Source of the DNA: Bacteroidales bacterium | GTDB lineage: Bacteria; Bacteroidota; Bacteroidia; Bacteroidales; JAAYJT01 | Direction: 5' to 3' | Assembly (NCBI GenBank): GCA_014860575.1 | Contig: JACZJK010000019.1 | Span: 1 to 64,000 of the forward strand | Length of the DNA stretch: 64,000 nucleotides | Part shown: positions 30,144-50,729 of the stretch, piece after piece | Layout of the letters: each line of letters opens with the position of its first letter | How positions within the stretch are numbered: position 1 is the stretch's first letter | Program-made: the position numbers and the translations under genes | Notes under the pieces: model-generated | Told to the model about the DNA's origin: nothing | The model's input: only the letters and a program-made list of their open reading frames with translations | Databases searched by the model: none

Positions 30144-30836
30144 TCAGCCATTCTTGCTGATAGCTTCCAGCTTAGCCAGGCTCAGGATTTCGAGACGGTT
30201 ACCTTCGAGGGTTATTATGTTTTCGTCTTTGAATTTTTTCATAACCCTGATGGCGCTTTCCTTTGTCATTCCTGAAAGATCGGCGAGGTCCTGACGGGAG
30301 ATGGTGAGATCAAAAGGATTGTCTTTGTAGATATTTGCCTGGAGATAAATCAGCATATCGGCCATTCGGCCAAAAACATGCTTTTGTGAATAACTTGATA
30401 TTTTTTTTAAAAGGTCAATTGCCTGAATACTGACTTTGTTGATGTACTCAGTTGCAAATTCCGGGTTTGACCTCATTAGTTCCTGCATGATGCTTGCATC
30501 AATTAGACAGGCCGAAGTTTCTTCACTAGCTACGGCAGTGAAATGGTGCCGCTGGTCAACAAAAGCTCCGGGTTCGAAAATATAGTTGATTGGCCTTATC
30601 AGACCCAGAATCACATTATGACTGTTTTCGTGCTCAATGTAAAGCTTAACAAGACCAGAGGTTATACAAATAAAATTGTTGCAGGGTGTTCCCTGTTTAA
30701 AGATTATCTCACCTGGATTATAGTGAATGCTAACGCGTTGACAATCTACTCTCTGGATCTCTTCAACCCCCAGGGCATTGAAAACATCAGACCGGCTTCG
30801 GCAGGCCATGCAATTTGTGCTAATTAACTTACCCAT
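30144..30836 (-). CDS. Crp/Fnr-family transcription regulator
   Basis: A 230-residue regulator with a cyclic-nucleotide-binding-like barrel (about 20-140), a dimerisation helix and a C-terminal winged HTH (ISRQDLADLSGMTKESAIRVMKKF). The recognition helix keeps the Glu and Arg that contact TTGAT-type half sites in FNR. Cys residues at 9, 12 and 32 (C-x2-C then a third) could bind an iron-sulfur cluster as in FNR, but the spacing differs and this is unproven. It is divergent from the cytochrome operon, with an FNR-like palindrome between them, so it probably controls that operon under low oxygen. Confidence 0.88.
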   Translation of the reverse strand: MGKLISTNCMACRSRSDVFNALGVEEIQRVDCQRVSIHYNPGEIIFKQGTPCNNFICITSGLVKLYIEHENSHNVILGLIRPINYIFEPGAFVDQRHHFTAVASEETSACLIDASIMQELMRSNPEFATEYINKVSIQAIDLLKKISSYSQKHVFGRMADMLIYLQANIYKDNPFDLTISRQDLADLSGMTKESAIRVMKKFKDENIITLEGNRLEILSLAKLEAISKNG

Positions 30837-30912
30837 AGATACAGAAACTTAAGAAAGCTAATAATCAATAAATGCAATATTAACGAAAAATTGTTTTGTA
30901 TGTTCGCTTTCA

Positions 30913-30926
30913 TTGATTTAAATCAA
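30913..30926. promoter_or_regulatory. FNR-type operator
   Basis: TTGATTTAAATCAA, a perfect match to the FNR consensus TTGAT-N4-ATCAA, within the 16-bp palindrome 30912-30927. It lies 77 bp from the regulator start and 110 bp from the first cytochrome gene, in a position to control either or both. Confidence 0.75.
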
Positions 30927-31035
30927 TATTATCGTGTAATGTATCAATGCAATTAACTGCATCTATCAATCGCAAAAATGTGCCTAATATGTGGATAATT
31001 AGTTCTTTTGTAGCGTAATGTAAACCATTGGGATT

Positions 31036-31419
31036 ATGAATCGTTCAGACATTAAACATTTTGTATCATCAGCGTTTATACTGCTGGTTTTACTGCTTGC
31101 CTTGGGTTCCTGCGAGTATGAATTTATTGAAATTGATCAGCCTGATCCAAATGTGACTGTCAAGTTTTCAGAAAGTATTCTACCCATCTTTGAAAGCAAC
31201 AGTTGTACTGGCTGCCACAAGCTTGGGGCTACCGCTCCTGACCTGACGGCTGCAAATGCATATAATTCAATTGTACCAGACCGTGTTAATCTGTCTGATC
31301 CGGAATCAAGCAAGATTTATACAGTTCCCGGCCCTTCATCAGCTCATCCCGCAAGGTATAATCTTGCGCAGGCCGCGCTGGTTCTAACCTGGATTAAACA
31401 AGGTGCAGAGAATAATTAA
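31036..31419 (+). CDS. Monoheme c-type cytochrome lipoprotein
   Basis: A 127-residue lipoprotein. The signal sequence ends in lipobox LALGSC (Cys26), and one heme-binding motif CTGCH lies at residues 57-61. The short domain after it (DLTAANAYNSIV to ALVLTWIKQGAENN) resembles small cytochrome c domains often attached to outer-membrane or surface electron-transfer partners. First gene of a cytochrome operon downstream of the FNR-type site. Redox partner unknown. Confidence 0.85.
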   Translation: MNRSDIKHFVSSAFILLVLLLALGSCEYEFIEIDQPDPNVTVKFSESILPIFESNSCTGCHKLGATAPDLTAANAYNSIVPDRVNLSDPESSKIYTVPGPSSAHPARYNLAQAALVLTWIKQGAENN

Positions 31420-31437
31420 TATAAAAAGCACACGCAA

Positions 31438-32301
31438 ATGAAAAGAAGTATTCTCATCAGCATTTCATTAATTATTGGGATTTGCCTTTTTGCACAGGAA
31501 GAAAAGGAAAAGGACAGGCCTGTTAGAGCTCCTTTTAACAGTGGGATTTTAATTGATAACCAAACCACTGCCATTCCATCGGTTAAAACCCTGGAATACC
31601 ATATCCAGCATAAGTTTGGTCAAATTGATAACGGCTTTTCTGACCTGTTCGGACTTTATGCGCCTGGTGCAAATATTCGTATGGCGTTGAATTATGTTCC
31701 CCTGAAAAATTTACAGGTTGCCTACGGACTAAGCCGTGTAAGAATGTACAGCGATTTCTCGGTCAAATACACTATACTGGAACAAACCCGACAGAACACT
31801 GTTCCGGTTGCAGTTGGTGTTTTTGCCAATATGGCCATTGATGGGCGCAATGATGAAGCATTTGGAAAGAACTATAAATTTTCGAACCGGTTCTCCTATT
31901 TTACACAACTCATTGTTGGGCGCAAGTTCAATGAATGGCTATCAGTGCAGGCCAATGCAAGTTTTACTCATTATAATATTACTGAACCTGGTATTGACCA
32001 CGATAAAGTATCCGTTGGTTTTAATGGACGTGCTAATTTTTCACCACAGTCGTCCATTCTGTTTCAGTATGATATCCCATTGCAGATACAAGGAATTGCC
32101 GAACATCGTGATTTTCTGAACCCTGCCAAACCAAACCTGGGTATTGGTTGGGAAATAAGGACCAGTACACACGCTTTCCATATTTATCTTTCCTCTACCG
32201 ATGCTATGATCTCACAGCACAGCATGTTGTATAATCAAAACGACTGGACAAAGGGTGATTTGATGATTGGGTTTTCAATAACCCGTATGTGGAGTTTTTA
32301 A
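31438..32301 (+). CDS. Outer-membrane beta-barrel protein (DUF5777-like)
   Basis: A 287-residue protein with a cleavable signal peptide (about 1-19, ending LFAQ). Alternating amphipathic strands throughout and a terminal aromatic (RMWSF) are typical of outer-membrane barrels. It resembles DUF5777 family proteins, which I know as companions of c-type cytochromes in Bacteroidota. Lying between two monoheme cytochrome genes (18 bp after the first), it could hold or insulate them in the outer membrane; that is inference. Confidence 0.75.
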   Translation: MKRSILISISLIIGICLFAQEEKEKDRPVRAPFNSGILIDNQTTAIPSVKTLEYHIQHKFGQIDNGFSDLFGLYAPGANIRMALNYVPLKNLQVAYGLSRVRMYSDFSVKYTILEQTRQNTVPVAVGVFANMAIDGRNDEAFGKNYKFSNRFSYFTQLIVGRKFNEWLSVQANASFTHYNITEPGIDHDKVSVGFNGRANFSPQSSILFQYDIPLQIQGIAEHRDFLNPAKPNLGIGWEIRTSTHAFHIYLSSTDAMISQHSMLYNQNDWTKGDLMIGFSITRMWSF

Positions 32302-32338
32302 TAAATTCAATTAATGTTAAATTTAAAACGATCGAAAA

Positions 32339-32755
32339 ATGAAAAAGAGAATTTTTAGCCTTACCATAATTGCCATAGGGGCTTTTGCCATGATGGCATT
32401 TATATTACCACAGGATCAGAAAATTGGTGGTCCCTGGGAAATTCCCAAGGAATACAAAGAAAAGGTAAATCCTCATAAAGGAGATGCCTCACTCGAAAAG
32501 CTTGGGCGCGCTACGTACAGCAGGCATTGCCGCTCATGCCATGGCAATACCGGACTGGGTGATGGCCCGATGACAAAAAACCTGAAAACCTTTCCTGGCG
32601 ATTTTTCTGATGCAACATTTCAGAAACATACCGATGGAGACATTTATTACATGTCGTTCATAGGCCGGGATGAAATGCCCAATTTTGAAAGCAAAATTAC
32701 CGATGAAGAAGAAAGATGGGCTGTTGTGAACTACATACGCAGTATGAAGAAATAA
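32339..32755 (+). CDS. Monoheme cytochrome c
   Basis: A 138-residue periplasmic class I cytochrome c. N-terminal signal or anchor (about 1-23), heme motif CRSCH at 64-68, and probable distal Met in DEMPNFE near the C-terminus, with the closing helix EERWAVVNYIRSMKK. It resembles small diffusible electron carriers. Third gene of the operon; a strong hairpin follows it. Confidence 0.9.
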   Translation: MKKRIFSLTIIAIGAFAMMAFILPQDQKIGGPWEIPKEYKEKVNPHKGDASLEKLGRATYSRHCRSCHGNTGLGDGPMTKNLKTFPGDFSDATFQKHTDGDIYYMSFIGRDEMPNFESKITDEEERWAVVNYIRSMKK

Positions 32756-32764
32756 CGTCTATAC

Positions 32765-32797
32765 CCGGAAAGAAACTATAGGCTTGTTTCTTTCCGG
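32765..32797 (+). terminator. Strong intra-operon hairpin
   Basis: A perfect 12-bp stem (CCGGAAAGAAAC / GTTTCTTTCCGG) with a 9-nt loop, 10 bp after the monoheme cytochrome stop. The T tract is weak (ATTTACTTTA), so it may be a partial terminator or an mRNA-processing or stabilising structure. Confidence 0.6.
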
Positions 32798-32827
32798 ATT
32801 TACTTTATCAACTATACTCACTCAGCA

Positions 32828-33832
32828 ATGATGTCAGCATTCTCAAGAAGCACTATCCGATCACTTACCAGGTGGCTCTTTCTTTTAGCCCCGGTAATGG
32901 TTGCATGGTTGCTTTCGGGTGTGCGGGCTACTGAAGGAACCGAACCAAATCTGGATCCAGATACACAAAAATGTCTTGAGTGCCACGGTGAAATGAGATA
33001 TACCCTGGTTGATCCCGTTACCGGAGACGAAGTATCAATGAAGATTTATGATGAAATAAGGATAGATGCCTGGGAATATACAAATGCCACACATGGCAGT
33101 TTTGCCTGCACTGATTGCCATTCAATGGATTATGAGATACACCCGCACCCTATTGATGTAAAGTTTGAATTTAAATATGCCTGCATTGATTGCCATGGTT
33201 CTGATGAGCAATATGCAGATTTTAACTTCCAAACTATCGAAGAGGAGTTTCAGCTCAGCGTACACGGCGATCATTTCATCGAAAACTTTAGTTGCTGGAG
33301 TTGTCATAATCCGCATACCTATAAAAATACCGCCCGCCTTGGGGGAGCTATTACTGATATTGTAGCCTACAACAATTCCATGTGCCTGGATTGTCATGGC
33401 GATATCAGCCATTATGATGTGTTGATTGAAAGGCAACTTACCAATATGCTTTCAAAGCACGATTGGTTGCCTAACCAAAGCCTGCATTTTCGTAAGGTGA
33501 GGTGCATTGACTGTCATGCATCAACGCACAAGGACATACTGGTGGCACATCATGTTCTGCCTGCCGATCAGGCTGTTCGAAATTGTGTGGATTGCCACTC
33601 CACCAACTCCATACTTATGGCTTCGCTCTACAAGCACCAGATTCAGGAGCGGAGAAGTAAATATGGGTTTTTCAATCCTTCAATCACCAGTGAAGCATAT
33701 ATAATTGGTGCGAACCGTAATTACTACTTCAATGTGATCAGCGCAGTTATTTTTGGATTGGTGTTGCTGGGAATTGCCATTCATGCTACCCTCAGGTACA
33801 TAAATTACAGGAGGAAACATGGGAAATCCTAA
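32828..33832 (+). CDS. Seven-heme membrane-anchored c-type cytochrome
   Basis: A 334-residue protein with an N-terminal signal or anchor (about 15-35), seven CXXCH motifs (CLECH, CTDCH, CIDCH, CWSCH, CLDCH, CIDCH, CVDCH) between about residues 49 and 256, and a C-terminal membrane helix (about 300-322). The next gene, a cytochrome b, overlaps its end by 14 bp. Together they look like a membrane quinol:cytochrome c oxidoreductase, comparable in layout to the cytochrome bc modules of metal-reducing bacteria. Exact partner unknown. Confidence 0.9.
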   Translation: MMSAFSRSTIRSLTRWLFLLAPVMVAWLLSGVRATEGTEPNLDPDTQKCLECHGEMRYTLVDPVTGDEVSMKIYDEIRIDAWEYTNATHGSFACTDCHSMDYEIHPHPIDVKFEFKYACIDCHGSDEQYADFNFQTIEEEFQLSVHGDHFIENFSCWSCHNPHTYKNTARLGGAITDIVAYNNSMCLDCHGDISHYDVLIERQLTNMLSKHDWLPNQSLHFRKVRCIDCHASTHKDILVAHHVLPADQAVRNCVDCHSTNSILMASLYKHQIQERRSKYGFFNPSITSEAYIIGANRNYYFNVISAVIFGLVLLGIAIHATLRYINYRRKHGKS

Positions 33833-34505
33833 GAGACTTTACCTTTATCCCCTATGGCTCAGGATATGGCATCATGTGAATGCCCTGCTCATGATTGTGC
33901 TTATCACCACAGGATTAAGCATGCAGTATTCGGATCCGGCTTATCCGCTCATTAGATTCGATCTTGCGGTTAGCTATCACAACGTTGCGGGAGTCTATCT
34001 AACTGCATCCTACTTTATTTTTCTTGTGGGTGTTTTATTCACATCAATTGGCCGCTATTACATAGTTAAAACCGAAGGGTTGCTGACTTCATTTGTAAGA
34101 CAATTGAAGTATTATTTATTTGGAATTTTCAGAGGCGAAACCAGTCCGTTTAAGGTTACTGAAAAGCAGAAATTTAATCCTATCCAGCTTATTACCTACA
34201 ACGTGACGATGCATGCCATCATTCCTGTAACCTTTATCACCGGTTGGGCGTTGATTTATCCGGAAACTATCGTTTTGAATGTATTTGGCTACAGCGGCAT
34301 CATGCTTACCAGTCTGGTGCATTCAATAGCAGGTTTCTTTATTTCTATTTTCCTCATCATTCATCTTTATGTCATTACCATTGGTCCAAGTACCATTACC
34401 AATTTGAAAAGTATTTTATATGGCTATCATGAAGAACATGAAACTCATCATGAAGAACATGAAAGCGTGGAGAATAATAATCAGGAAAGTCAGGAAAGCA
34501 AATAA
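33819..34505 (+). CDS. Di-heme cytochrome b (b561/hydrogenase-type) subunit
   Basis: A 228-residue integral membrane protein with four helices. Conserved His residues (RIWHHVNALLM, SYHNVAGVY, MHAIIPVTF, LVHSIAGFF, IHLYVIT) are suitable as b-heme ligands, like cytochrome b subunits of hydrogenases and thiosulfate reductases. It has a Shine-Dalgarno AGGAGG before its ATG, rare in this window, and overlaps the multiheme gene. The cytoplasmic tail is a His/Glu-rich repeat (HEEHETHHEEHES) that could bind metal. Probably oxidises menaquinol and feeds the 7-heme subunit. Confidence 0.87.
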   Translation: MGNPKRLYLYPLWLRIWHHVNALLMIVLITTGLSMQYSDPAYPLIRFDLAVSYHNVAGVYLTASYFIFLVGVLFTSIGRYYIVKTEGLLTSFVRQLKYYLFGIFRGETSPFKVTEKQKFNPIQLITYNVTMHAIIPVTFITGWALIYPETIVLNVFGYSGIMLTSLVHSIAGFFISIFLIIHLYVITIGPSTITNLKSILYGYHEEHETHHEEHESVENNNQESQESK

Positions 34506-34524
34506 CAACAAAACAACAACTATT

Positions 34525-35565
34525 ATGAAAATTAAATTCACATTCTTAACAATTGCAACCATCGTGGTATTCGTATTAGGGAATATGTTTATCACCAGTT
34601 GTACGAAAGAAGGCCCGGAAGGTAAACCCGGACTTGATGGAATTGATGGCAAGGATGGAGCAGAAAGCTGTAGTTCGTGCCATAATTTTGCAGAGCATCT
34701 GCTTGCTAAGATCCAGCAGTACTCCAACTCTGTGCATGCACAGGGGGCCAATATTACACGCAACACTGAAGGCTGTTCCCATTGTCATACGAGCATGGGT
34801 TTCAGGAACTATCTGGCCGATGGTACTTTGGGTGTAATCAATGATCCAACACCGATCAATTGTCGCACCTGCCATCCTATTCACGAATCTTATACATTTG
34901 AAGATTATTCATTGCGAACATCCACTGCTGTTGATTTGATCGTGGGCGATGCAACCTACGATTATGGTAGCTCCAATTTGTGTGCAAATTGCCATCAGGC
35001 ACGTTCGGTTAGCCCATATCCGGTAGCCGGGGGAGATGATGTTACCATTACCAATGCCCGTTATGGCCCGCATTATGGCCCACAGTCCAATATGCTGGCA
35101 GGCAAGGGCCCTTACCAGATACCTGGAAGCATGGCATACCTGAATTCAGCTCATACCAATCTTGTAACAAATGGTTGTGTAACTTGCCATATGGGACCGG
35201 CAACCGGCACATTTGGCGGCGGACACCAAATGAATGTACACTATACCACAGCTTCCGGAGGCACATCTTATCAATACACAGGATGCCTGGAATCAGGTTG
35301 CCATAATTCTGCCGCTGACGTTACCGCTATGATCAATCCCAATCGCACTGAAATCCAGGGATTGCTCACACAGTTGAAAGAGAAATTGCAGGAGAATGGA
35401 CTGCTGAATGATGCTGAACTGGTGCCTGTTCCACTCACGATGACTCAGATGGAAGCCGCTGCTGTAATGAATTACAAATTTGTTTATGGCGATCATAGTT
35501 ATGGTGCGCATAACTACCGGTTCACAAAGGCTTTACTTGTTAACACACTCGAATCGTTAAATTAA
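34525..35565 (+). CDS. Six-heme c-type cytochrome lipoprotein with collagen-like linker
   Basis: A 346-residue lipoprotein. The lipobox (FITSC) is followed directly by six Gly-X-Y triplets (GPEGKPGLDGIDGKDG), then five CXXCH motifs (CSSCH, CSHCH, CRTCH, CANCH, CVTCH) and one expanded CX4CH site (CLESGCH). The Gly-X-Y stretch would act as an extended spacer from the membrane. The upstream frame to 34420 overlaps the cytochrome b tail and is not likely translated. Last gene of the operon before a strong terminator. Probably outer-membrane or periplasmic electron transfer. Confidence 0.87.
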   Translation: MKIKFTFLTIATIVVFVLGNMFITSCTKEGPEGKPGLDGIDGKDGAESCSSCHNFAEHLLAKIQQYSNSVHAQGANITRNTEGCSHCHTSMGFRNYLADGTLGVINDPTPINCRTCHPIHESYTFEDYSLRTSTAVDLIVGDATYDYGSSNLCANCHQARSVSPYPVAGGDDVTITNARYGPHYGPQSNMLAGKGPYQIPGSMAYLNSAHTNLVTNGCVTCHMGPATGTFGGGHQMNVHYTTASGGTSYQYTGCLESGCHNSAADVTAMINPNRTEIQGLLTQLKEKLQENGLLNDAELVPVPLTMTQMEAAAVMNYKFVYGDHSYGAHNYRFTKALLVNTLESLN

Positions 35566-35606
35566 GTCATGCCATCTTAATCAGAGAGCATTAACTGATA
35601 TTTTTG

Positions 35607-35645
35607 AGAGGTTGCCTGACTTAGTACAGGCAACCTCTTTTTTTA
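35607..35645 (+). terminator. Intrinsic terminator of the cytochrome operon
   Basis: A perfect 12-bp stem (AGAGGTTGCCTG / CAGGCAACCTCT) with an 8-nt loop, followed by TTTTTTTAT. It ends the 31.0-35.6 kb operon. Confidence 0.95.
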
Positions 35646-35686
35646 TAGACTTGATTATATCTTTCAACATTAAAAGATTGTAAATC

Positions 35687-37189
35687 ATGAAACTTCCATC
35701 ATCTGTACGAAACTGGACTTCGATTGCAGGCGCCTCACTGGCAGTAATCAGCATAGTAACTATTGCCTTCCTGTTTTTTATTTCCATGGTGTTTGATGCA
35801 GGAAGTTCGTACCTGGGCATATTCATCTGGATAATTTTACCTGTTTTCCTTGTCATCGGTTTGGTACTTATTCCAACAGGAATGTGGATCACACACCGTA
35901 AACAACTGAAGAGCCACTCTCAACAGACGGCCCTAAAATGGCCGGTTATTGATTTTAATTCGTCAACGGTTCGTAATGCAACCATTGTTTTTATTACCGG
36001 CACACTTGTGTTCTTAATGCTGACCGGAATAGGAAGTTATGAGGCATTTCATTACACCGAATCGGTGGAGTTTTGTGGTACAGTTTGTCATAAGGTTATG
36101 GAACCTGAATATGTAGCCTACCATGAATCTTCGCACGAAAGGGTAAAGTGTGTAGAATGCCATGTGGGATCAGGTGCAGATTGGTATGTTAAAAGCAAAC
36201 TATCAGGATTGTACCAGATTTATTCAGTTATGTTTGATAAATATCCCCGGCCTATTCCAACACCATTGCATAACCTTCGCCCGGCGAGAGAAACCTGTGA
36301 AGAATGCCATTGGACTGAAAAGTTTTATGAACCCATGCTTCGTCTGAAACGATCCTATCTTTCGGACTATGATAATACGGAATGGGATATCAACCTGATG
36401 ATGAAAACCAGCGCTACATATAGCGCTTTGGGTTTACAGGAAGGTATTCACTGGCACATCAATCCCGATGTACATATTGAATACCAAACCGATCCTGATG
36501 ACCCCAATATTATTCCCTGGGTTCGCTATACGAACCTTAAAACCGGGGAAGTTCAGATATACAAGGACTCTGAATATCAATTCAACAATAGCAATTTTAG
36601 TGAGAATGGGCTGAAAACAATGGACTGTATAGATTGTCATAATCGTCCTTCACACAATTACCAGGTTCCACAGAATTTTATTGATGATGCCATCACGGCT
36701 GGAGAAATTTCGAGGGAACTGCCTGATATTAAATACCTGGCAATGGAAATACTCGGGCAGGATTACCCTAGCAGAGACAGCGCATTCATAGCAATCAGTG
36801 TAAAGGTGACAGAGTATTACGAATCAATGTATGATTATATGCTTGAATCCCACAAAGATGAGATTGAATGGGCCATCCTGGCAATACAGATGGGATATCG
36901 CCGTAATATTTTCCCCGAAATGAAAGTGAAGTGGAACCAATATCCCAATCATCTTGGTCATCTTGAAACAAATGGTTGCTATCGCTGCCATAGCGACCGG
37001 CACATTACAGAGGCAGGCAAAGTAATTACCCGCGAATGCACCACCTGCCATAATATCCTGGCACAGGGCGAACCCGGAAATATGGAATATTCAGGCACAT
37101 TTGAATCACTGGAATTCAAACATCCCATTGAGATTGGTGACGCCTGGCAAACAACTTTTTGTTCAGATTGCCATTTTCAATTGTACTAA
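35687..37189 (+). CDS. NapC/NirT-type multiheme cytochrome c (seven hemes)
   Basis: A 500-residue protein with two or three N-terminal membrane helices (about 10-35, 45-65, 98-118) and then a periplasmic part. The first heme site is the unusual CX3CH motif CGTVCH (130-135), in the NapC/NrfH context FCGTVCHKVMEPEY. Six CXXCH sites follow (CVECH, CEECH, CIDCH, CYRCH, CTTCH, CSDCH). NapC/NrfH proteins take electrons from menaquinol and hand them to periplasmic reductases. No nitrite or nitrate reductase gene is beside it. It follows the strong terminator and so has its own transcript. Confidence 0.9.
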   Translation: MKLPSSVRNWTSIAGASLAVISIVTIAFLFFISMVFDAGSSYLGIFIWIILPVFLVIGLVLIPTGMWITHRKQLKSHSQQTALKWPVIDFNSSTVRNATIVFITGTLVFLMLTGIGSYEAFHYTESVEFCGTVCHKVMEPEYVAYHESSHERVKCVECHVGSGADWYVKSKLSGLYQIYSVMFDKYPRPIPTPLHNLRPARETCEECHWTEKFYEPMLRLKRSYLSDYDNTEWDINLMMKTSATYSALGLQEGIHWHINPDVHIEYQTDPDDPNIIPWVRYTNLKTGEVQIYKDSEYQFNNSNFSENGLKTMDCIDCHNRPSHNYQVPQNFIDDAITAGEISRELPDIKYLAMEILGQDYPSRDSAFIAISVKVTEYYESMYDYMLESHKDEIEWAILAIQMGYRRNIFPEMKVKWNQYPNHLGHLETNGCYRCHSDRHITEAGKVITRECTTCHNILAQGEPGNMEYSGTFESLEFKHPIEIGDAWQTTFCSDCHFQLY

Positions 37190-37517: not shown

Positions 37518-38198
37518 ATGGAAGCACTAATTTTAGCAGCAATCGTACTCATAGTAATAGGAGTAGATATTACAATTCAGTACATGAATAGCAAAAAAAA
37601 AACAGTTCTCGAATCTAACTCTCAGTTACAAGAGGTTTTTGATGAACAAACCGTCAGAATCCCCAAAGGGATTTATTTCGACAAAACACATACCTGGGCG
37701 TTTATGAACAGAAATGGAAAAGTAGAAGTTGGGATCAACGATTTCCTGCAAAACATTACCGGAACTCCCAGTCGTATAGAGATGAAACAGACAGGTGACT
37801 CTGTTAGAAAAGGTGACCACTTGCTCACCCTTGTCCAGGATGGAAAGCGCCTGAACATCTATTCACCTGTTTCCGGGATCGTAAAAGCCTCCAATGAGAA
37901 ACTGATTAACCAGCCCTCTTTGCTCAACTCAGCGCCTTATGCTGAAGGTTGGGTTTATCATATTGAACCGGTTAACTGGTTCAGGGAAACACAGTTTATG
38001 TTGATGGCCGACCAAACAGCCAACTGGATGAAAAAAGAATTTTCACGACTGAAAGATGTTTTGGCCAATGCTTATGCTGTAAATAAACTTGTCCCTGTTA
38101 TGCAGGATGGCGGTGCATTGAAAAGCCATTTGCTTGAAAACGCCGAGCCAGAGGTGTGGGAAGAGTTTCAAACAAACTTCATTGACACCATTAAGTAA
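37518..38198 (+). CDS. Membrane-anchored GcvH-like protein, paralog 1
   Basis: A 226-residue protein: N-terminal membrane helix (about 3-22) followed by a Lys-rich stretch that suggests a cytoplasmic C-terminus. A glycine-cleavage-H-like domain (about 45-150) has FDKTHTWAF, VEVGINDFLQNITG, GDHLLTLVQDGK, IYSPVSG and APYAEGWVYHI. Aligned to GcvH without gaps, the lipoyl-Lys position is Gly and a Lys sits one residue later. A C-terminal region (about 155-226) with NWFRETQ, PVMQDGG and a final W-x2-F is shared with the second paralog. First gene of the sigma-54-type operon. Not a glycine cleavage enzyme by context. Confidence 0.8.
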   Translation: MEALILAAIVLIVIGVDITIQYMNSKKKTVLESNSQLQEVFDEQTVRIPKGIYFDKTHTWAFMNRNGKVEVGINDFLQNITGTPSRIEMKQTGDSVRKGDHLLTLVQDGKRLNIYSPVSGIVKASNEKLINQPSLLNSAPYAEGWVYHIEPVNWFRETQFMLMADQTANWMKKEFSRLKDVLANAYAVNKLVPVMQDGGALKSHLLENAEPEVWEEFQTNFIDTIK

Positions 38199-38231
38199 GG
38201 ATCTAAAAACTGAACTAAATCAAAATCAAGA

Positions 38232-39101
38232 ATGAGCTTAAATAGAAGAACATTTTTTAAGTTCTGGGGTGTAGCGGGTGCGGCACTGGCCTTTGGCAAA
38301 AGCCTCGAAGCAGCTCCGGCAAGCGACGATGGTGTTGAGTTGATGGGAGTACTTTATGATGCCAGCAGATGTGTTGGATGTCAAACCTGTGAGTTTGCAT
38401 GTGCTGACTCGCACAATATGGAATTCCCTGAGGACGGGCCCAGCACTGATATTAAGAGAAGTTTGGACCCAACCAAACGAACCGTGGTGAACTGGTACAA
38501 TTTGCCCGATGGCAGCGAGGGATACAGCAAGAAACAGTGCATGCATTGCAACGAACCGGCATGTTTTACTGCCTGCCTGACGCAAGCATTATATAAAACC
38601 AAAGAAGGCCCGGTAGTGTGGCGCGAAGACAAATGTATGGGATGCCGTTTCTGCATGATCTCATGCCCCTTCGAAATACCCAAGGCTGAATACGACAACA
38701 ACAACCCACGCATTGTGAAGTGCAATATGTGCTACCACAAGTGGGCAGATAGCGAAAGACCAGCCTGTGTTAACGATTGCCCATACGATGCTTTGATGTT
38801 TGGCACACGTCGCGAATTGCTTGATGAAGCCCGCAAGCGCATGCTCGAAAACCCTGATACTTATCATCCTCACATTTATGGCGAAAAAGAAGCTGGCGGA
38901 ACAAGCTGGTTGGTAATTTCACCTGTTCCTGTTGAACAGATTGGTTTTAACAACAAAATCCAACTGAAATCCTACCCAACCCTTACCAAAGGATTTGTAT
39001 CATCCATTGCGCCAGTTGATTTATTGCTCCCCGCTTTTTTGCTCGGACTGTATGAAGCCACAAAAGTACGTACCCAAAACACTGAGGAGGAAGAACTTTG
39101 A
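38232..39101 (+). CDS. Tat-exported 4x[4Fe-4S] ferredoxin subunit (HmcB/HybA-type)
   Basis: A 289-residue electron-transfer subunit. The N-terminus has a twin-arginine signal (NRRTFFK, residues 4-10). Four [4Fe-4S] clusters are suggested by Cys motifs CVGCQTCEFAC, CMHCNEPACFTAC, CMGCRFCMISCP and the CNMC...C...CP group. A hydrophobic C-terminal segment (about 255-275) may anchor it. The family pairs with NrfD-type membrane subunits. The next gene starts inside its stop codon region (overlap), so the two are coupled. Confidence 0.92.
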   Translation: MSLNRRTFFKFWGVAGAALAFGKSLEAAPASDDGVELMGVLYDASRCVGCQTCEFACADSHNMEFPEDGPSTDIKRSLDPTKRTVVNWYNLPDGSEGYSKKQCMHCNEPACFTACLTQALYKTKEGPVVWREDKCMGCRFCMISCPFEIPKAEYDNNNPRIVKCNMCYHKWADSERPACVNDCPYDALMFGTRRELLDEARKRMLENPDTYHPHIYGEKEAGGTSWLVISPVPVEQIGFNNKIQLKSYPTLTKGFVSSIAPVDLLLPAFLLGLYEATKVRTQNTEEEEL

Positions 39102-40327
39102 ACCAGACCACAGCAATTCAATACGCAGACAACAAAGGCAATAATACCTGGAAGTTCTTTATAAACGAACTGAAGCCTAAAACAAAAATTTTCACCGCTT
39201 TCAACATCATCACTTTGCCAATTATTCTTTTGGGCCTTGGTATTATTGTTTACAGGTTTATGTATGGCCTGGGCTCAGTTACCAACCTTACACAGGAAAT
39301 GCCCTGGGGTATATGGAAGGCTTTTAACGTGGTTGTGGGCGTTGCTATGGCCGGTGGAGCTTATGTGCTTGTTTTTATCACCCATGTGCTACACCTTAAA
39401 AAGTACAACCCTATCCTAAAGGTAGCTGTATTAAATGGCCTGCTGGCTTATATATTCTATTCATTTGCCCTGATCCTTGAGTTGGGTCGCCCACTTGATA
39501 TTTTTAATGTGATTATTGGAAATGATTATGGCGTCAGCTCTATCCTGTTCCTGGTAGCATGGCATTTTATGCTCTATATCCTATGCCTTATGCTTGAGTT
39601 TTCGCCTTCGGTTGCCGAATGGCTTAACGCACGCAAAACATACAAATTCCTGGCAGGCATCACTTTGGTGGCCGTTGTGTTTGGGATCACACTTTCGGTG
39701 CTGCACCAGGCCGGTATCGGCGGCCTCTTTATGCTGGCCAAAGGCAAGGTTCACCCCTTGTGGTACAACCAATATATGCCATTGATGTTTGTGATTCAAA
39801 GTGTTTTTGGCGGACTTGCACTTGTGATTGCTTTAGTTACCCTTTGCTGGAAGATATTTGCCTATCAGCTTGACGAAACCTACCGCAAAGCCAAAGATCC
39901 AATATTAGTAGGACTGGCAGGCATCTGTGCCCTAAGCATGTTCTCCTACTTCTTTATGCATGTAATCATTTTCGCCCACGAAAAAAACTGGGTATATATG
40001 GGAACCGGCTGGGGCTGGTGGTATCTCCTCGAAATGATTCCTTTTGTGGTGGTGCCCATGTTTATGTTCCTCTATGGCTTCAAACTCAAAAACATCAGAC
40101 TGATCAATATCGCTGCAGTGCTCACACTGGTTGGTATTATTCTGAACCGAATGAACACCTCCCTGATCGCCTACAATATTGATGCCCCCATAAGATATGT
40201 ACCTACAATCTGGGAAATTATTGTATCGATATCGGTTATACTGATTCAGATATGGGTTTTCCGATGGATCGTTTTAAGAATGCCCGTGCTGCGCAAATCA
40301 CCTGATTGGGCCAAAGGAGCACATTAA
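39098..40327 (+). CDS. NrfD/PsrC/HmcC-type quinol-interacting membrane subunit
   Basis: A 409-residue integral membrane protein with about ten helices, of the NrfD superfamily (the long HmcC/HybB-like form). Conserved-looking polar residues lie in WGIWKAFNVVVG, LELGRPLDIF and SVLHQAGIGGLF. It begins with a TTG overlapping the ferredoxin stop and preceded by a good Shine-Dalgarno (GAGGAGG). It should exchange electrons between the menaquinone pool and the iron-sulfur subunit. No catalytic molybdoenzyme is encoded nearby. Confidence 0.92.
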   Translation: MNQTTAIQYADNKGNNTWKFFINELKPKTKIFTAFNIITLPIILLGLGIIVYRFMYGLGSVTNLTQEMPWGIWKAFNVVVGVAMAGGAYVLVFITHVLHLKKYNPILKVAVLNGLLAYIFYSFALILELGRPLDIFNVIIGNDYGVSSILFLVAWHFMLYILCLMLEFSPSVAEWLNARKTYKFLAGITLVAVVFGITLSVLHQAGIGGLFMLAKGKVHPLWYNQYMPLMFVIQSVFGGLALVIALVTLCWKIFAYQLDETYRKAKDPILVGLAGICALSMFSYFFMHVIIFAHEKNWVYMGTGWGWWYLLEMIPFVVVPMFMFLYGFKLKNIRLINIAAVLTLVGIILNRMNTSLIAYNIDAPIRYVPTIWEIIVSISVILIQIWVFRWIVLRMPVLRKSPDWAKGAH

Positions 40328-40389
40328 AAAAATATTCCTATTAAACAATTGAAATAAATACAAAAAATAACCTTTAAAAAAATAATAAA

Positions 40390-41109
40390 ATGGACGGCTT
40401 TAGCTATTACAACATTTTCGAGACCAAGGGAATAGAGTACCTTATCACTGTAGCCTTCTTCTTATTGCTGGTGCCTTTTTGGATAGCACTGAACAGACAA
40501 GCAAAAGCTACTAAAAAACTAAATGAAGCATTGGGCATTCTCTCAGCCAACTTGCTAAAAATTCCACAAGGATTGTTCTATAGTAAAAACCACACCTGGA
40601 CTTTCCTCGAAAGAGGCGGTGCTGCACGCATTGGTTTGGATGACTTGCTGCTGAATATCATAGGCGAAGTAAAGGTTAACAACCTGAAATCGCCCGGAGA
40701 TAAAATCAAAAAAGGTGATGTGATTGCCGAAATCGGACAGAACGGCAAAAACCTGAAAATTGTATCCCCCGTTTCTGGCGAGGTTCTTAAATCGAACCAT
40801 ATCTTGCACGAAACACCTGAAATGTTGAATGATGACCCTTATGGACAAGGATGGATATACAAAGTGAAGCCTACCAACTGGATGGCCGAAACACAAGCCT
40901 GCTACATGGCCGAAGATGCCATTAACTGGTCAAGACGCGAAGTGGAACGTTTTAAGGATTTCATGGCTGAAAGCATGAAAGCACATTCTTCCGAACCTTC
41001 GATGGTTATCATGCAGGATGGTGGAGAAATCAGCAGAAATGCCCTGGCAGAAATGCCCAGCGAAATTTGGAAGGATTTCGAAAAGAACTTTATGACTGCC
41101 ACGACTTAA
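40390..41109 (+). CDS. Membrane-anchored GcvH-like protein, paralog 2
   Basis: A 239-residue relative of the protein at 37518: membrane helix at about 17-35 followed by a basic stretch (NRQAKATKK), then a GcvH-like domain (YSKNHTWTF, GDVIAEIGQNGK, IVSPVSGEV, DPYGQGWIYKV) and the same C-terminal region (NWMAETQ, VIMQDGG, EIWKDFEKNF). The lipoyl-Lys position is again Gly with Lys one residue later (NGK). The two paralogs bracket the ferredoxin and NrfD genes and probably form a structural part of that membrane complex on the cytoplasmic side. Confidence 0.8.
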   Translation: MDGFSYYNIFETKGIEYLITVAFFLLLVPFWIALNRQAKATKKLNEALGILSANLLKIPQGLFYSKNHTWTFLERGGAARIGLDDLLLNIIGEVKVNNLKSPGDKIKKGDVIAEIGQNGKNLKIVSPVSGEVLKSNHILHETPEMLNDDPYGQGWIYKVKPTNWMAETQACYMAEDAINWSRREVERFKDFMAESMKAHSSEPSMVIMQDGGEISRNALAEMPSEIWKDFEKNFMTATT

Positions 41110-41369: not shown

Positions 41370-43034
41370 ATGACCAGTACAAGCGAAACTAAAAAAGATA
41401 AAAAAACCGGCCTCTCTTTTTTCAAGAAATATGAAAAAATCAGGTCCTCCATCTATGGGCAGGTCATTTACTCCATCCTTATTTTATCCATCTTTCTCTT
41501 TTTGTTGTTTGGTATTATATTCCGATCAGTAAATGAGCGCTTTATGGAAAGGGTGATTTACCAAAACGGCTACAATGTCGGGCATTTTGTACAAGGGGCA
41601 TTGTATCATTCAATGCTTGAAAATGACAAAGCCGTGCTTCAAAACACCCTGGATGTGATCAACCGCTTGCCCAATATTGATGAGGTAAATATGTACAACG
41701 AATTTGATAGCCTGGTATATACCACCCAGGCAGAAGATTCATTGTCCGGGCTAGTTGATTTCAAGGGGTACTTTAGTGAGCCAAAAGAAATTGATGAAAA
41801 GTCCTATGTGGTACTTGACTCAACCAATGGATTTGGATTGTTTAGCAAATACCAGCGGGAAAGGCATTTGCTGATCCGTTCGCCCATTTTAAACGAACCC
41901 TCTTGTATGCAATGCCACTGGGTTCACAAGGAAACAGATGTGGTGCTGGGATCACTCATTATAAAAATTCCGCTTAATGAACTGGACTCGGCCCTGCGCG
42001 AATCATCGGTGGACTTTTTCATTCTGGCAACCATTATGACAGTGCTGCTGCTGGTCTTTCTGGTGCTGTTTACCACGAAGAACATCAGAAAACCATTTAA
42101 TGCCATTGTTTTGGCAAGTGAGGCGGTTGCCAGCGGCGATAAAAAAATGCGTCTCAATGTTGAGCCAAACCAATTGTCGGATATTCGTACCGTTTCCATC
42201 GCCTTTAACAATATGCTGGACAATTTGGAAAGAGCCAATCTTGAATTGCAAAACTGGTCGCAACAACTGGAGCATAAGGTGCAGAAAAAAACAGAGGAAT
42301 TAGGCGCGGTCCAAAATGAATTGATCAATATTGAGCGCATTGCATCCCTCGGCAAGCTGTCCATGTCAGTAGCACACGAAATTAACAATCCACTTACTGG
42401 CATACTCACCTATACCAAATTGGTGCAAAAGCAACTCAACAACCAGGAAGTGCCTCCACCAAAAATGGACTCGATGATGAAACACCTGAAAATTATCGAA
42501 ACAGAAACCAAAAGGTGTGGGGATATTGTAAAAGGATTACTCGACTTTTCTCGCAAAGACCAAAAGAATTTTGAAGCCAAGAACTTACACGAAGTGCTTC
42601 GCGACACTTTCAACATCATGTCGCACCCCATGAAGATTGCCAATATTGAATTCATTTCGCACTTTGTTGCCGAACAAGACCTGATTTTTTGCAGTCCCAA
42701 TCAAATAAAACAAGCTTGTATCGCCTTGCTGGTCAACAGCAAAGAAGCGATCAACGAAAATGGTGAAATAGTTATCAAAACCGACAATCCCGACCCAGAC
42801 CATGTTAGTATTATAATTTCGGATAATGGCACGGGCATTCCGGAAGCAGACCTGCCGCATATTTTTGAACCTTTCTTTTCGAGCAAACAAAAAACAGGTG
42901 GTTCGGGCTTAGGCCTTTCTATCGTTCACGGCATTGTAAACAGCCACAAAGGTAAAATTGACGTGCAGTCGGTGCAGGGACAATCCACAACAATGACATT
43001 CACATTACCTTTGATAAAAAACAAGGAGAGTTAA
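41370..43034 (+). CDS. Sensor histidine kinase with periplasmic c-heme motif
   Basis: A 554-residue kinase: membrane helix 1 (about 30-53), a periplasmic domain (about 55-212) with a c-heme motif CMQCH (Cys179, Cys182, His183), helix 2 (about 213-236), a HAMP linker, HisKA with phosphoacceptor His336 in VAHEINNPLTG, and HATPase (N box ALLVNSKEAI, G boxes DNGTGIP and GGSGLGLS). It ends 3 bp before the NtrC-type regulator. The heme suggests sensing of redox state, oxygen, NO or CO at the outer side of the membrane. Likely controls the upstream operon through its partner. Confidence 0.92.
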   Translation: MTSTSETKKDKKTGLSFFKKYEKIRSSIYGQVIYSILILSIFLFLLFGIIFRSVNERFMERVIYQNGYNVGHFVQGALYHSMLENDKAVLQNTLDVINRLPNIDEVNMYNEFDSLVYTTQAEDSLSGLVDFKGYFSEPKEIDEKSYVVLDSTNGFGLFSKYQRERHLLIRSPILNEPSCMQCHWVHKETDVVLGSLIIKIPLNELDSALRESSVDFFILATIMTVLLLVFLVLFTTKNIRKPFNAIVLASEAVASGDKKMRLNVEPNQLSDIRTVSIAFNNMLDNLERANLELQNWSQQLEHKVQKKTEELGAVQNELINIERIASLGKLSMSVAHEINNPLTGILTYTKLVQKQLNNQEVPPPKMDSMMKHLKIIETETKRCGDIVKGLLDFSRKDQKNFEAKNLHEVLRDTFNIMSHPMKIANIEFISHFVAEQDLIFCSPNQIKQACIALLVNSKEAINENGEIVIKTDNPDPDHVSIIISDNGTGIPEADLPHIFEPFFSSKQKTGGSGLGLSIVHGIVNSHKGKIDVQSVQGQSTTMTFTLPLIKNKES

Positions 43035-43037
43035 AAA

Positions 43038-44378
43038 ATGGCAAAGCAAATTTCCCTACTCATTGTTGATGATGAGGAATCCGTAAGGGATTCTTTGTTC
43101 AACTGGTTCATTGAGGACGATTACTATGTTGAATGTGCCGAAGATGCCAAACAGGCACTTTCGATAATCGAAACCAAACACTTTGATATAATTATTTCCG
43201 ACATTAAAATGCCCGGCATGGATGGCATGGAGATGCACAGAAGAATCAAAGCACTGAACAAAAAATCCATCGTCATCATCATGACAGCTTTCGCAACAGT
43301 TGATACAGCTGTGCAAGCGCTCAAAGATGGTGCCTTTGACTATATTACCAAACCCTTTGATCCAGACGAGCTTTCGCATCTGATCAAGAATGCCGCCAGG
43401 CAAATCTCGCTTGAGCAGGAAAACCTGGCACTGAAAGAAAAGTTCACCGAACTTGAAAATGTAGATGATATCGTAGGTGACAGCGAGCCTATGAAACAGG
43501 TCTTGAAAGAAGTGAGGAGCGTGGCTCAATCCAATTCCTCAGTAGTTATTACCGGCGTAAGCGGAACAGGAAAGGAGCTGATAGCAAGGGCTATACACTC
43601 CAATTCGCCGCGGAAATATTTCCCACTCGTAAGTGTGCATTGCGGGGCCTTATCCGAAAGTCTGCTCGAAAGCGAATTGTTCGGGCACGAAAAAGGAGCT
43701 TTTACAGGTGCCATGTACAACCGCAAGGGCCGTTTTGAAATGGCCGACGGCGGCACCATTTTCCTGGATGAGATTGCTACCATTTCAGCCAAAATGCAAA
43801 TTGAGCTGTTGCGTGTGCTCGAAACAAAGAAATTTGTACGTGTGGGCGGCAACAAGGAAATAAGTTCCGATTTCCGGGTCATATGCGCCACCAACCGCGA
43901 CTTGAAGAGCATGGTTGAAAAAGGCACCTTCCGCGAAGACCTGTATTACCGACTCAATGTGGTAAACATCAATGTGCCACCACTGCGTGAACGGCCAAGC
44001 GATATTCCGCTATTGGTTAACTTCTTCATCAAGAAGTATTGTGTAGCCATGAACAAAGCGCCCATTAGCATTGACGAACAAGCACTGATGCGTATGAAGG
44101 AATTCGATTATCCTGGCAATGTGCGCGAACTCGAAAATATGATCGAGCGGGCAATTGTTATCGGCGATGGCAAAAAAATCAGGCTCAGCGACCTGCCCCT
44201 GGCCAAAGACAGCGTGATCAGCGGCTATGAAAGCCTCGAAGACCTTGAGAAAGCGCACATAATCCAAATTCTAAATAAATATGGGTGGAACATTTCGCAA
44301 TCGGCAAAAGCACTGAAGGTGGACCGGGTTACCCTGTACAACAAAATCAAAAAATTTGACCTGAAACAACCGGAATGA
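43038..44378 (+). CDS. NtrC-family sigma-54-dependent response regulator
   Basis: A 446-residue activator: receiver domain (1-120) with D55 in IIISDIKMPG, and an AAA+ domain (about 145-380) with Walker A GVSGTGKE, the sigma-54-contacting GAFTGA loop, GGTIFLDE and the arginine-finger region. A Fis-type HTH (about 405-446, WNISQSAKALKVDRVTLYNKIKKF) completes it. A Shine-Dalgarno AAGGAGAG precedes the ATG. Partner of the heme kinase; the only sigma-54-type promoter I can support nearby is at 37452. Confidence 0.95.
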   Translation: MAKQISLLIVDDEESVRDSLFNWFIEDDYYVECAEDAKQALSIIETKHFDIIISDIKMPGMDGMEMHRRIKALNKKSIVIIMTAFATVDTAVQALKDGAFDYITKPFDPDELSHLIKNAARQISLEQENLALKEKFTELENVDDIVGDSEPMKQVLKEVRSVAQSNSSVVITGVSGTGKELIARAIHSNSPRKYFPLVSVHCGALSESLLESELFGHEKGAFTGAMYNRKGRFEMADGGTIFLDEIATISAKMQIELLRVLETKKFVRVGGNKEISSDFRVICATNRDLKSMVEKGTFREDLYYRLNVVNINVPPLRERPSDIPLLVNFFIKKYCVAMNKAPISIDEQALMRMKEFDYPGNVRELENMIERAIVIGDGKKIRLSDLPLAKDSVISGYESLEDLEKAHIIQILNKYGWNISQSAKALKVDRVTLYNKIKKFDLKQPE

Positions 44379-44457
44379 CTTCTTTCAGGTCGGCAAATCA
44401 AATCAGCCTGACAACCCATCTTGTGAAGGAAAGGCTTGATATTGTGGTCAGTAGAAT

Positions 44458-44994
44458 ATGCATACAATCACATTAATCGCATACGGACAATTTGATATGG
44501 AATTTTTGGAGCGCATAGCTGCTGAAATTGCTACTGAACTGAATTATCCGCTGAGCCTGATCCAAGGCCATTTGGATATGGGCGATTATTATGACCCACG
44601 CCGAAGGCAATACGACGGCAACAAACTGATCAAAGTGGTTGATACCATGGCACCTCCCGAAGCTTCAAAAGTAATGGGATTGTTCACTGTTGATTTGTTT
44701 ATCCCCATCCTCACCTACATATTTGGCCAGGCGTTCCTGAATGGACGCACAGGCATTGCCTCATTACACAGGCTGAAAAATGAGTATTACGGCATGAAAC
44801 CAAATAATTTCCTGCTTTTCGAACGTTTCAAAAAAGAAATCATACACGAACTGGGACACACCCTGAGCCTGAAGCATTGCTACTTCCCCCCCTGTGTGAT
44901 GCAATCAAGTACCTATGTGGAGGATATTGACCAAAAAGAGCCCGGCTTTTGTCTGCACTGCCTTAGCTCCATAAAAAAAGAGCCTGAAAAATAA
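44458..44994 (+). CDS. Archaemetzincin-like zinc metallopeptidase (M54)
   Basis: A 178-residue protein with the archaemetzincin signature HELGHTLSLKHC (His130, Glu131, His134, His140, Cys141), then C-V-M (about 146-148) and FCLHC, the second zinc-site Cys set. The usual Gly three residues after the second His is Ser here. Archaemetzincins are cytoplasmic putative aminopeptidases of unknown substrate, common in archaea and patchy in bacteria. It follows the regulator by 79 bp and may share its transcript. Confidence 0.9.
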   Translation: MHTITLIAYGQFDMEFLERIAAEIATELNYPLSLIQGHLDMGDYYDPRRRQYDGNKLIKVVDTMAPPEASKVMGLFTVDLFIPILTYIFGQAFLNGRTGIASLHRLKNEYYGMKPNNFLLFERFKKEIIHELGHTLSLKHCYFPPCVMQSSTYVEDIDQKEPGFCLHCLSSIKKEPEK

Positions 44995-49358: not shown

Positions 49359-50729
49359 ATGAGATTACAAAAAACAATTCATCTACGCTTTCTTGTTGGC
49401 CTAGCCATAGTATTTACAATCGTAATTTCTGCCGCGATGCTTAAAGGCAAGGAGAATGACCAAAAAGCGTATAAGTACGATGATTTCAAAACGCCGGAAT
49501 ATTGCGGCACGGCTTGCCACAACGATATTTACCGGCAGTGGAAGCAAAGCATGATGGCGCAGGCTTTCACGCATCACTGGGACGAAATCGAATATTTTGA
49601 GCTGGCGATTCCGCATGCAAAGCTCGAACCAAAAGTGGCCGAAGTCGAAGCAGCTTGTAATGGTTGTCATACACCTATGGCTTACCTCACCGGCGACATT
49701 CCTCCGCAAAGACCTGATAAAAACACACGTGCAAACGAAGCGGTTTCCTGTGAGGTCTGCCACTTGATTTCCGGTTTCACAGGCGATATTCCTTACAATT
49801 TCAATTACATTATTGAACCCGGGTTCACAAAATACAGTGGCCGTAAAGGAGGGGTTCAATCTCCCAACCACGAAATAAAAATCAGTGAATTACATCGCAG
49901 TGGCGATTTTTGCGGTATCTGCCACAATGAGAAAAGCCCTTTTGATGTATGGGTGAAATCAACCCACCTTGAATGGAAGGAAGGCCCTTATTATAAAGAA
50001 GGTGTGCAATGCCAGGATTGCCACATGCCGAAAGCCGAAGGCAAAATTGCACTCATGGGAAACACTTACGGGGATGCACGCCAACATTTATTTCATGGTG
50101 CACACGATCCGGGAAAAGTGCGGGGAACCGTTGAACTGCGCATCCATTCTGATATAGCTGAAGCAGAACCTGGCGAACCCGTAAAGTTTACCATCGTACT
50201 CTTCAACCAGAAAACAGGACATAAATTCCCGACCGGCTCAGTGGAAGACCGACTATTGTGGATGCATGTTGAGGCTACCGATACCAAAGGCAATGTGTAT
50301 CATTTGCCTGTTGACCGCAAAGGTTTTGAAGGTGAGGATTACACCATCGCCTCTGATGTTCTTGCTTATCAGGATATGGGTGTTCCGCTTGGGAAAGAAA
50401 ATTTCCCTGGTTTACAACGCGATGGCATTCCACTGGGCAACCGCATTTTCCGGATGGCTTATTTTGACCCTCAGGGCCGTATGACCATTCAGCAGTGGAA
50501 TACAGCATCCCTCGGTGTTGATTACCGGTTCGAACCCAGGGGCAGTATCATCGAAACCTGTACCTTTACAATTCCGCTCAATGCAGCGCCCGGAAAAATG
50601 ACTGTCAAAGCTTCACTTAACTATCAATTACTTGTGAAACCCGTTGCCGATTTCTTAAAAGTTCCTGATGAAGAATCAGCTATTATGCTGGTGAATGAGC
50701 ATAGTACTCGAGTGGAGGTGTTGTTGTGA
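49359..50729 (+). CDS. Five-heme c-type cytochrome (c554-like)
   Basis: A 456-residue protein with an N-terminal signal or anchor (about 10-28). Five heme sites: a CX3CH motif CGTACH (49-54) followed by CNGCH, CEVCH, CGICH and CQDCH. After about residue 265 comes a beta-rich domain (VELRIHSDIAEAEPGEPVKFTI) without hemes. The heme part resembles cytochrome c554-type multiheme proteins. It precedes a heme-porin gene by 77 bp and probably works with it in periplasmic-to-outer-membrane electron transfer. Confidence 0.88.
   Translation: MRLQKTIHLRFLVGLAIVFTIVISAAMLKGKENDQKAYKYDDFKTPEYCGTACHNDIYRQWKQSMMAQAFTHHWDEIEYFELAIPHAKLEPKVAEVEAACNGCHTPMAYLTGDIPPQRPDKNTRANEAVSCEVCHLISGFTGDIPYNFNYIIEPGFTKYSGRKGGVQSPNHEIKISELHRSGDFCGICHNEKSPFDVWVKSTHLEWKEGPYYKEGVQCQDCHMPKAEGKIALMGNTYGDARQHLFHGAHDPGKVRGTVELRIHSDIAEAEPGEPVKFTIVLFNQKTGHKFPTGSVEDRLLWMHVEATDTKGNVYHLPVDRKGFEGEDYTIASDVLAYQDMGVPLGKENFPGLQRDGIPLGNRIFRMAYFDPQGRMTIQQWNTASLGVDYRFEPRGSIIETCTFTIPLNAAPGKMTVKASLNYQLLVKPVADFLKVPDEESAIMLVNEHSTRVEVLL

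Follow-up and report, generated by a model that had tools for sequence, protein, structure and literature searches.

GcvH, the lipoyl-bearing H protein of the glycine cleavage system, is commonly, though not universally, encoded in linkage with gcvP and gcvT. Lipoyl-like folds also serve without lipoate in redox complexes, in RnfC and NqrA. Outside glycine cleavage, LbpA of sHdr sulfur oxidation is a GcvH-like lipoate-binding protein (PMC6067878, PMC10332631), whose lipoyl lysine is strictly conserved in 95 aligned proteins (PMC6067878). The word GcvH is absent from the text covered by a term search of a review of the NrfD family (PMC8076601), and another paper describes other NrfD clusters (PMC10732223). 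Here, we have analyzed a stretch of 64,000 nucleotides from a Bacteroidales bacterium (GCA_014860575.1, contig JACZJK010000019.1, positions 1 to 64,000; hereafter the window), in which two membrane-anchored GcvH-like proteins lacking the lipoyl lysine, designated A and B, enclose a ferredoxin-like Fe-S protein and an NrfD-family subunit and are followed by a histidine kinase (HK), a response regulator (RR) and an archaemetzincin (AMZ). The parts belong to known families, and the whole can be classed as a two-component system with a redox module. The host genome has a size of 4.4 Mb and encodes an ordinary GcvH separately, on contig C5.

The initial annotation of the window had described the order GcvH-like, Tat Fe-S protein, NrfD and GcvH-like, and all four open reading frames (ORFs) were found in that order on the forward strand (Table 1; gene starts and signal peptides were judged by eye, and ORF starts are uncurated). 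The unit continues beyond position 41109, with the kinase, the regulator and the metalloprotease, which had not been linked to it, following B at 41370-44994. A scan of species genomes returned 283 relatives, the best 80 loci being kept for tallies. The complete order A-FeS-NrfD-B-HK-RR-AMZ was present in 53 of them, including 42 in which A carries a PstS-like domain and the kinase is single, 8 in which A lacks this domain and 3 with two kinases; five further loci had A, HK, RR and AMZ only, one (L089) carried HK-RR-AMZ before A, and 21 were incomplete, most of which reach a contig end (exceptions are L028, L046, L034 and L081). Two of the loci come from isolates, L099 from Sunxiuqinia dokdonensis DH1 and L028 from Tangfeifania diversioriginum DSM 27063, both of which have A, FeS, NrfD and B. 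Among 295 genomes of the order, which overlap those behind L022-L101 and several of which gave rows to the query alignments, the kinase sensor was detected in 35 and an extended GcvH in 37 (E <1e-40, a cut placed where the values jump from 1e-43 to 1e-27); A was present in every one of the 35 kinase genomes, and the other 258 had neither at the chosen cuts. A without the kinase was found in two genomes, G019, which is 70% complete, and G531, in which the cassette seems decayed. In the latter (L130:7932-12455), a single frame joins the Fe-S gene to the kinase part, the regulator is short, and NrfD and B are uncalled, for which a real deletion and an assembly fault are both possible. Within the phylum, 53 of 395 genomes gave extended GcvH matches (E up to 1e-25), a few of which may be ordinary GcvH. 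All genome searches scored the best first-look candidates (up to 7 or 9 per genome), and misses are possible.

Table 1. Features of the cassette, with coordinates in the window
Feature	Position	Strand	Remark
Candidate sigma-54-like promoter, TTGGCAC-N5-TTGAA	37452..37468	+	~50 bp upstream of A; exact long form present here
GcvH-like A, 226 aa: N-terminal transmembrane (TM) helix, GcvH-fold domain without lipoyl Lys (D108-G109-K110), C-terminal helical region	37518..38198	+	
Tat-type ferredoxin-like 4x[4Fe-4S] protein, 289 aa: 16 Cys, NRRTFFK, C-terminal TM segment	38232..39101	+	Closest to HmcB/HybA
NrfD-family membrane subunit, 409 aa: TTG start as listed, 10 hydrophobic segments	39098..40327	+	Closest to HmcC/HybB
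GcvH-like B, 239 aa: single TM helix, GcvH-fold domain without lipoyl Lys (NGK), C-terminal region as in A	40390..41109	+	
Histidine kinase (HK): two TM helices, sensor between them carrying c-type haem motif SCMQCH	41370..43034	+	
NtrC/AtoC-type sigma-54 response regulator (RR), GAFTGA in translation	43038..44378	+	
Archaemetzincin (AMZ; Peptidase_M54), HELGHTLSLKHC	44458..44994	+	Pfam M54 77.6 bits vs cut-off 24.4

Two modules can be told apart within the cassette. In all ten genomes whose A, HK, RR and AMZ genes have no FeS, NrfD and B genes next to them, the NrfD subunit of the window found no match at E up to 0.001; the same query gave 1e-128 to 1e-151 in five full-cassette genomes. Completeness is known for five of the ten (95-97%), and two of them, L055 and L080, are close kin (A identical at 545 of 565 residues). 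L055 is labelled Alphaproteobacteria, yet its A, so close to that of the Bacteroidales L080, falls inside the Bacteroidota clade, and the label may be wrong. Seven A rows from NrfD-less loci are scattered over the tree, at least five label changes being forced by supported branches. B occurs only alongside Fe-S/NrfD in the loci tallied. Thus, A belongs with the signalling genes, whereas the Fe-S protein, NrfD and B travel together. Pairs beside glycine-cleavage genes were largely not seen: of the 86 loci, two had gcvP in the flank retrieved, at a distance of about 6 kb, which many of the flanks do not reach (gcvT was not part of this search), and the fixed gene set contains no glycine-cleavage gene. 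It also contains no catalytic or hydrogenase subunit, and the conserved order includes no sHdr or lipoate-ligase gene, although no search aimed at these two was made.

A and B score 80.6 and 81.4 bits, respectively, against Pfam GCV_H (cut-off 22.2), far higher than against RnfC_N and NQRA_N, the barrel-sandwich hybrid domains of RnfC and NqrA, to which matches are weak and below the curated cut-offs. An AlphaFold model of A (pLDDT 89.8) superposes on the solved H-protein 1htp with Z 19.0 and an rmsd of 1.5 over 131 residues, and A and B are 37% identical, with a C-terminal region common to both, which bears out the GcvH fold and shared C-terminal region proposed earlier. Unlike GcvH, however, both proteins are membrane-anchored, lack the lipoyl lysine, have extra C-terminal helices and fall below the cut-off of the GcvH equivalog model (64.6 and 70.8 bits for the two proteins; cut-off 115.85). 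Because they fall under Pfam GCV_H, automatic naming may file proteins of this type as glycine-cleavage H proteins. The claim that glycine occupies the lipoyl-lysine position of A and B, with lysine one place later, holds in a profile alignment to solved GcvH, read by eye, and across 156 relatives (loci L016-L101), in which the lipoyl position is Gly in 146, Asp in 7, Asn in 2, Ser in 1 and Lys in none, and the next position is Lys in 149, Arg in 3, Asn in 3 and Ile in 1. The ordinary GcvH of the host retains the lysine, in EAVKT. LbpA resembles A and B in that a GcvH relative has been taken over for a role outside glycine cleavage and is associated with a redox gene set, but it keeps the lysine that is missing from 156 of 156 relatives of A and B.

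In the model of A, strands 101-107 and 110-115 are joined by the turn D108-G109, in which G109 aligns with the lipoyl lysine, and K110 opens the next strand. In lipoyl-domain work, a shift of the lysine by one residue is reported to impair lipoylation, as the initial annotation pointed out. When the proteins are split by gene order, Gly-Lys is invariant in the A position (85/85), unlike in the B position, where Gly is found in 61 and the following Lys in 64 of 71 proteins, one of which is an A-clade protein of L082 that gene order places among them. None of the distant members inspected (types II and III, below) has Lys at the lipoyl position. A tree of 178 rows, built by a quick method and rooted at its midpoint, separates A (87 rows) from B (71 rows), each group having a support of 99; 11 rows of the B clade had escaped the A/B name rule. 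That A is a broken copy was considered and rejected, as its frame stays open from species to species and the form without a PstS-like domain recurs.

Such a periplasmic PstS-like domain is carried by A in 70 of the 80 loci, in chains commonly of 555-600 residues as called, which are composed of a signal-peptide-like start (by eye), the periplasmic domain (PBP_like_2 in the three tested), one TM helix, the GcvH domain and the C-terminal region. It is missing from A of the window and of 10 of the 80 loci, L022 among them, at more than one place on the tree and mostly with the rest of the cassette present. A model of the L099 protein (pLDDT 78.7) has a phosphate-binding-protein fold in residues 33-311 (4omb_A, Z 20.0, rmsd 3.9 over 254 residues) and a GcvH part in residues 373-505 (1htp, Z 19.2, rmsd 1.4). 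Since the PstS fold precedes the single TM helix, the GcvH domain is most likely cytoplasmic, and the location predicted for it in the initial annotation is supported at this strength. The PstS-like domain (L099:7957-9627 and relatives) also has a conserved D-x-N-x-N-G-x-I-D-x-x-E loop, which we take to resemble the calcium loop of EF hands.

The NrfD subunit matches PF03916 (53.9 bits), with 10 hydrophobic segments, in line with the 8-10 TM helices of this family, and a 16-Cys 4x[4Fe-4S] partner, which assigns the pair to the NrfD-family quinone modules; the pair would exchange electrons with menaquinone. The best NCBIfam matches of the two proteins are the pairs HmcB/HmcC and HybA/HybB. Unlike in Hmc and Hyb, however, both proteins are below the equivalog cut-offs (Fe-S protein versus HmcB, 295 bits, cut-off 420; NrfD versus HmcC, 338 bits, cut-off 550), and the fixed set has neither HmcA nor a hydrogenase subunit. 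HmcA had no match among three upstream cytochromes of the window that were tested, and none is present in the conserved order. Just upstream of A, the window encodes a Crp/Fnr-like ORF (by eye), c-type, multihaem and MtrC-like cytochromes and a cytochrome b561 (30144-37189), and a further ORF, at 49359-50729, contains several CxxCH motifs and, judged by eye, resembles a multihaem cytochrome. The upstream cytochrome cluster was rejected as part of the unit, as the closest relative, L022 (92% in A), is without such cytochromes.

The kinase of the window has HisKA and HATPase_c domains. At least one c-haem motif is present in all 72 kinases of relatives, and one CxxCH plus one CxxxxCH in 70 of them, which suggests that the sensor may bind haem. 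No solved relative of the sensor was found (best E 0.05, unrelated names), and its assignment to a named family was rejected, there being at most a weak Mcp40H-type match below the cut-off. Four loci (L016, L033, L070 and L086) carry two such sensor kinases in tandem ahead of the regulator. The window regulator has a receiver-AAA+ layout, and GAFTGA is conserved in 65 of 66 relatives. At the place where the regulator would be expected in L034, after the kinase, an ORF (7897-9018) with a zinc-finger-like start may be a transposase (by eye). As for the protease, HExxH and HExxHx5HC are present in 66 of 66 relatives and HExxHxxGxxH in 62. Compared with the extended zinc motif of archaemetzincins, HExxHxxGxxHC (PMC3427221), the motif of the window protein, HELGHTLSLKHC, has Ser for Gly.

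A site of the form TGGCA-N6-TTG is present near the start of A in 75 of the 80 loci, compared with 0.2 for letter shuffles that preserved letter content only, and none of 68 kinase starts has one nearby (the search spanned -300 to +90 around each start, since ORF starts are uncurated). The spacing within the site is compatible with -24/-12 elements. The TTGA variant behind this count was picked after seeing the window, among six patterns tried. A textbook sigma-54 promoter with TTGC before A was rejected, its looser form being found in two and its stricter form in one of the 80 loci. A regulon defined by the long form of the site was likewise rejected, as this form has two occurrences genome-wide, the second one at L128, against three for a reversed-pattern control. 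When one mismatch is allowed, the window has two such sites, close to chance expectation. The simplest reading is that the regulator would activate the operon of A to which it belongs.

Sixteen loci were read in distant Bacteroidota (L117 and the NrfD of L122 remained unresolved by a simple ORF caller), and two extra layouts were found, one of each being present in L115 and L124. In type II (11 clusters), a TM-GcvH protein, an Fe-S protein and NrfD are followed by HK, RR and AMZ in 10 of 11. Eight of the 11 (by eye) also encode a soluble protein with a Cys-rich N-terminus, which is GcvH-like in the two tested; in L113:4550-5401, L114:10299-11126 and similar proteins, the N-terminal C-x-W...YKLCD-x-x-F-x-C-x-x-C is a possible metal site. 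Type III (six clusters) consists of an Fe-S protein, NrfD (5/6 as called), a 13-haem cytochrome (6/6), a haem-motif kinase, and REC-GcvH and TM-REC-GcvH proteins, in which a receiver is fused to the GcvH-like domain: all 12 type III GcvH proteins are above both the Response_reg and the GCV_H cut-offs. Judged by eye, the receivers inspected retain the acidic pair as well as phospho-Asp, Thr/Ser and Lys, and no DNA-binding regulator was called inside the six clusters. They thus recall response regulators with non-DNA-binding output, here with the receiver joined to a GcvH-like domain in one chain; a single literature search aimed at it found no publication on a GcvH-like output domain. One 13-haem cytochrome tested against HmcA scored 61.6 bits (cut-off 400), and the type III kinase L115:11164-13032 has a zinc-ribbon-like match below the cut-off between HisKA and HATPase_c. 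The literature searched, preprints not included, yielded no account of the cassette combination, of the PstS-TM-GcvH chain or of the REC-GcvH regulators.

Taken together, we consider it about an even chance (probability around 0.5) that the locus represents a conserved redox-signalling cassette. Its lipoyl-less GcvH domains would act in the cytoplasm as docking or effector modules, A for the two-component core and B for the NrfD module. The core would comprise A, mostly with its periplasmic PstS-like domain, the kinase with c-haem motifs in its periplasmic sensor, the sigma-54 regulator and the archaemetzincin, to which an optional redox module of Tat Fe-S protein, NrfD and B would be added, exchanging electrons between menaquinone and the periplasmic side. 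The Fe-S/NrfD pair may report the state of the quinone pool, plausibly via the Fe-S clusters to the kinase haem, and A and B may act as docking elements at the cytoplasmic face that connect kinase and regulator with the redox module and the periplasmic binding domain. The sigma-54-like promoter ahead of A would then be activated by the regulator.

Several observations weigh against this proposal. Adjacency and co-occurrence would also be expected if the two-component pair simply controlled transcription of a respiratory complex. A single haem motif is present in the window kinase, compared with two in 70 of 72 relatives, and both motifs are kept by the kinase in all seven NrfD-less loci checked; the kinase haem therefore need not take electrons from NrfD. 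The type II Fe-S protein has no Tat signal (by eye), a misfit with a periplasmic path from Fe-S protein to haem, and the type II locus L120 is without HK, RR and AMZ. The promoter pattern was chosen after the textbook form had failed, with GA at -12 rather than the textbook GC. Among the incomplete loci that do not reach a contig end, L028 and L046 have more than 6 kb after B without a kinase, although one is encoded elsewhere in the genome, L034 has a kinase followed by 4 kb without regulator or protease, and L081 has the protease before A and no kinase in nearly 4 kb after B or elsewhere in the genome (a kinase of the cassette type was found in seven of eight genomes checked, L028 and L046 included, with L081 being the miss).

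The main competitor of the redox-signalling cassette is a dedicated quinone oxidoreductase of the Hmc/Hyb type, in which Fe-S protein and NrfD connect menaquinone and periplasmic cytochromes by electron transfer, A and B serve as structural subunits, and the HK-RR pair only controls expression. Doubtful as we consider it, it draws on the closest named relatives of both redox proteins (HmcB/HmcC and HybA/HybB), on the promoter-like site before A together with a sigma-54 regulator two genes past B, and on cytochromes, namely the 13-haem proteins of all six type III loci, one weakly HmcA-like, and the multihaem genes upstream in the window. Upstream cytochromes are absent in L022, however, and a catalytic subunit is absent from the conserved set. 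It also leaves unexplained why A is retained in 10 of 10 genomes without an NrfD match and why type III GcvH domains are fused to receivers. The same two facts bear on the initial annotation, which had regarded both GcvH-like proteins as structural or differently modified parts of a menaquinol-linked complex: the fold, the lipoyl loss and the restriction of B to loci with Fe-S/NrfD agree with this view, but that both are plain complex parts is not supported, as A stays with HK, RR and AMZ where no NrfD match was found.

That persistence of A, HK, RR and AMZ without Fe-S, NrfD and B, together with the PstS-like fold of the L099 protein (Z 20.0 to 4omb_A), would suit a co-sensor whose periplasmic domain binds a solute and whose GcvH part relays to the kinase, the redox module being a later add-on; this is unlikely, though, given that A of the window and of 10 of the 80 loci dispenses with the domain, at more than one place on the tree, mostly with the remaining cassette in place. 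Even less probable, and very improbable in our judgment, is that A and B are still carriers holding lipoate or another adduct on the lysine one place later for chemistry at the cytoplasmic side. The lysine is invariant in the 85 A-position proteins, but 7 of 71 B-position proteins have Arg, Asn or Ile instead, as several type II and III members have Arg, so that a charge fits better than an attachment site; furthermore, the modelled residue lies at a strand start, outside the turn, and no ligase gene belongs to the conserved order, though ligases were not searched for.

If the proposal of a redox-signalling cassette is true, a carrier domain of central metabolism has lost its cofactor and been given a new role in signalling, and the cassette, with A and the kinase together in 35 of 295 genomes of the order, would represent a widespread bacterial means of tying quinone-pool chemistry to a two-component system with haem motifs. 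Going further, and only tentatively, the lipoyl-less GcvH domain may be an effector and docking domain of two-component signalling through which phosphorelay and quinone-redox module talk to each other, with some lineages having a response regulator whose sole output is a membrane-anchored GcvH domain. In that case, the signal could act on the redox complex directly, beyond transcription.

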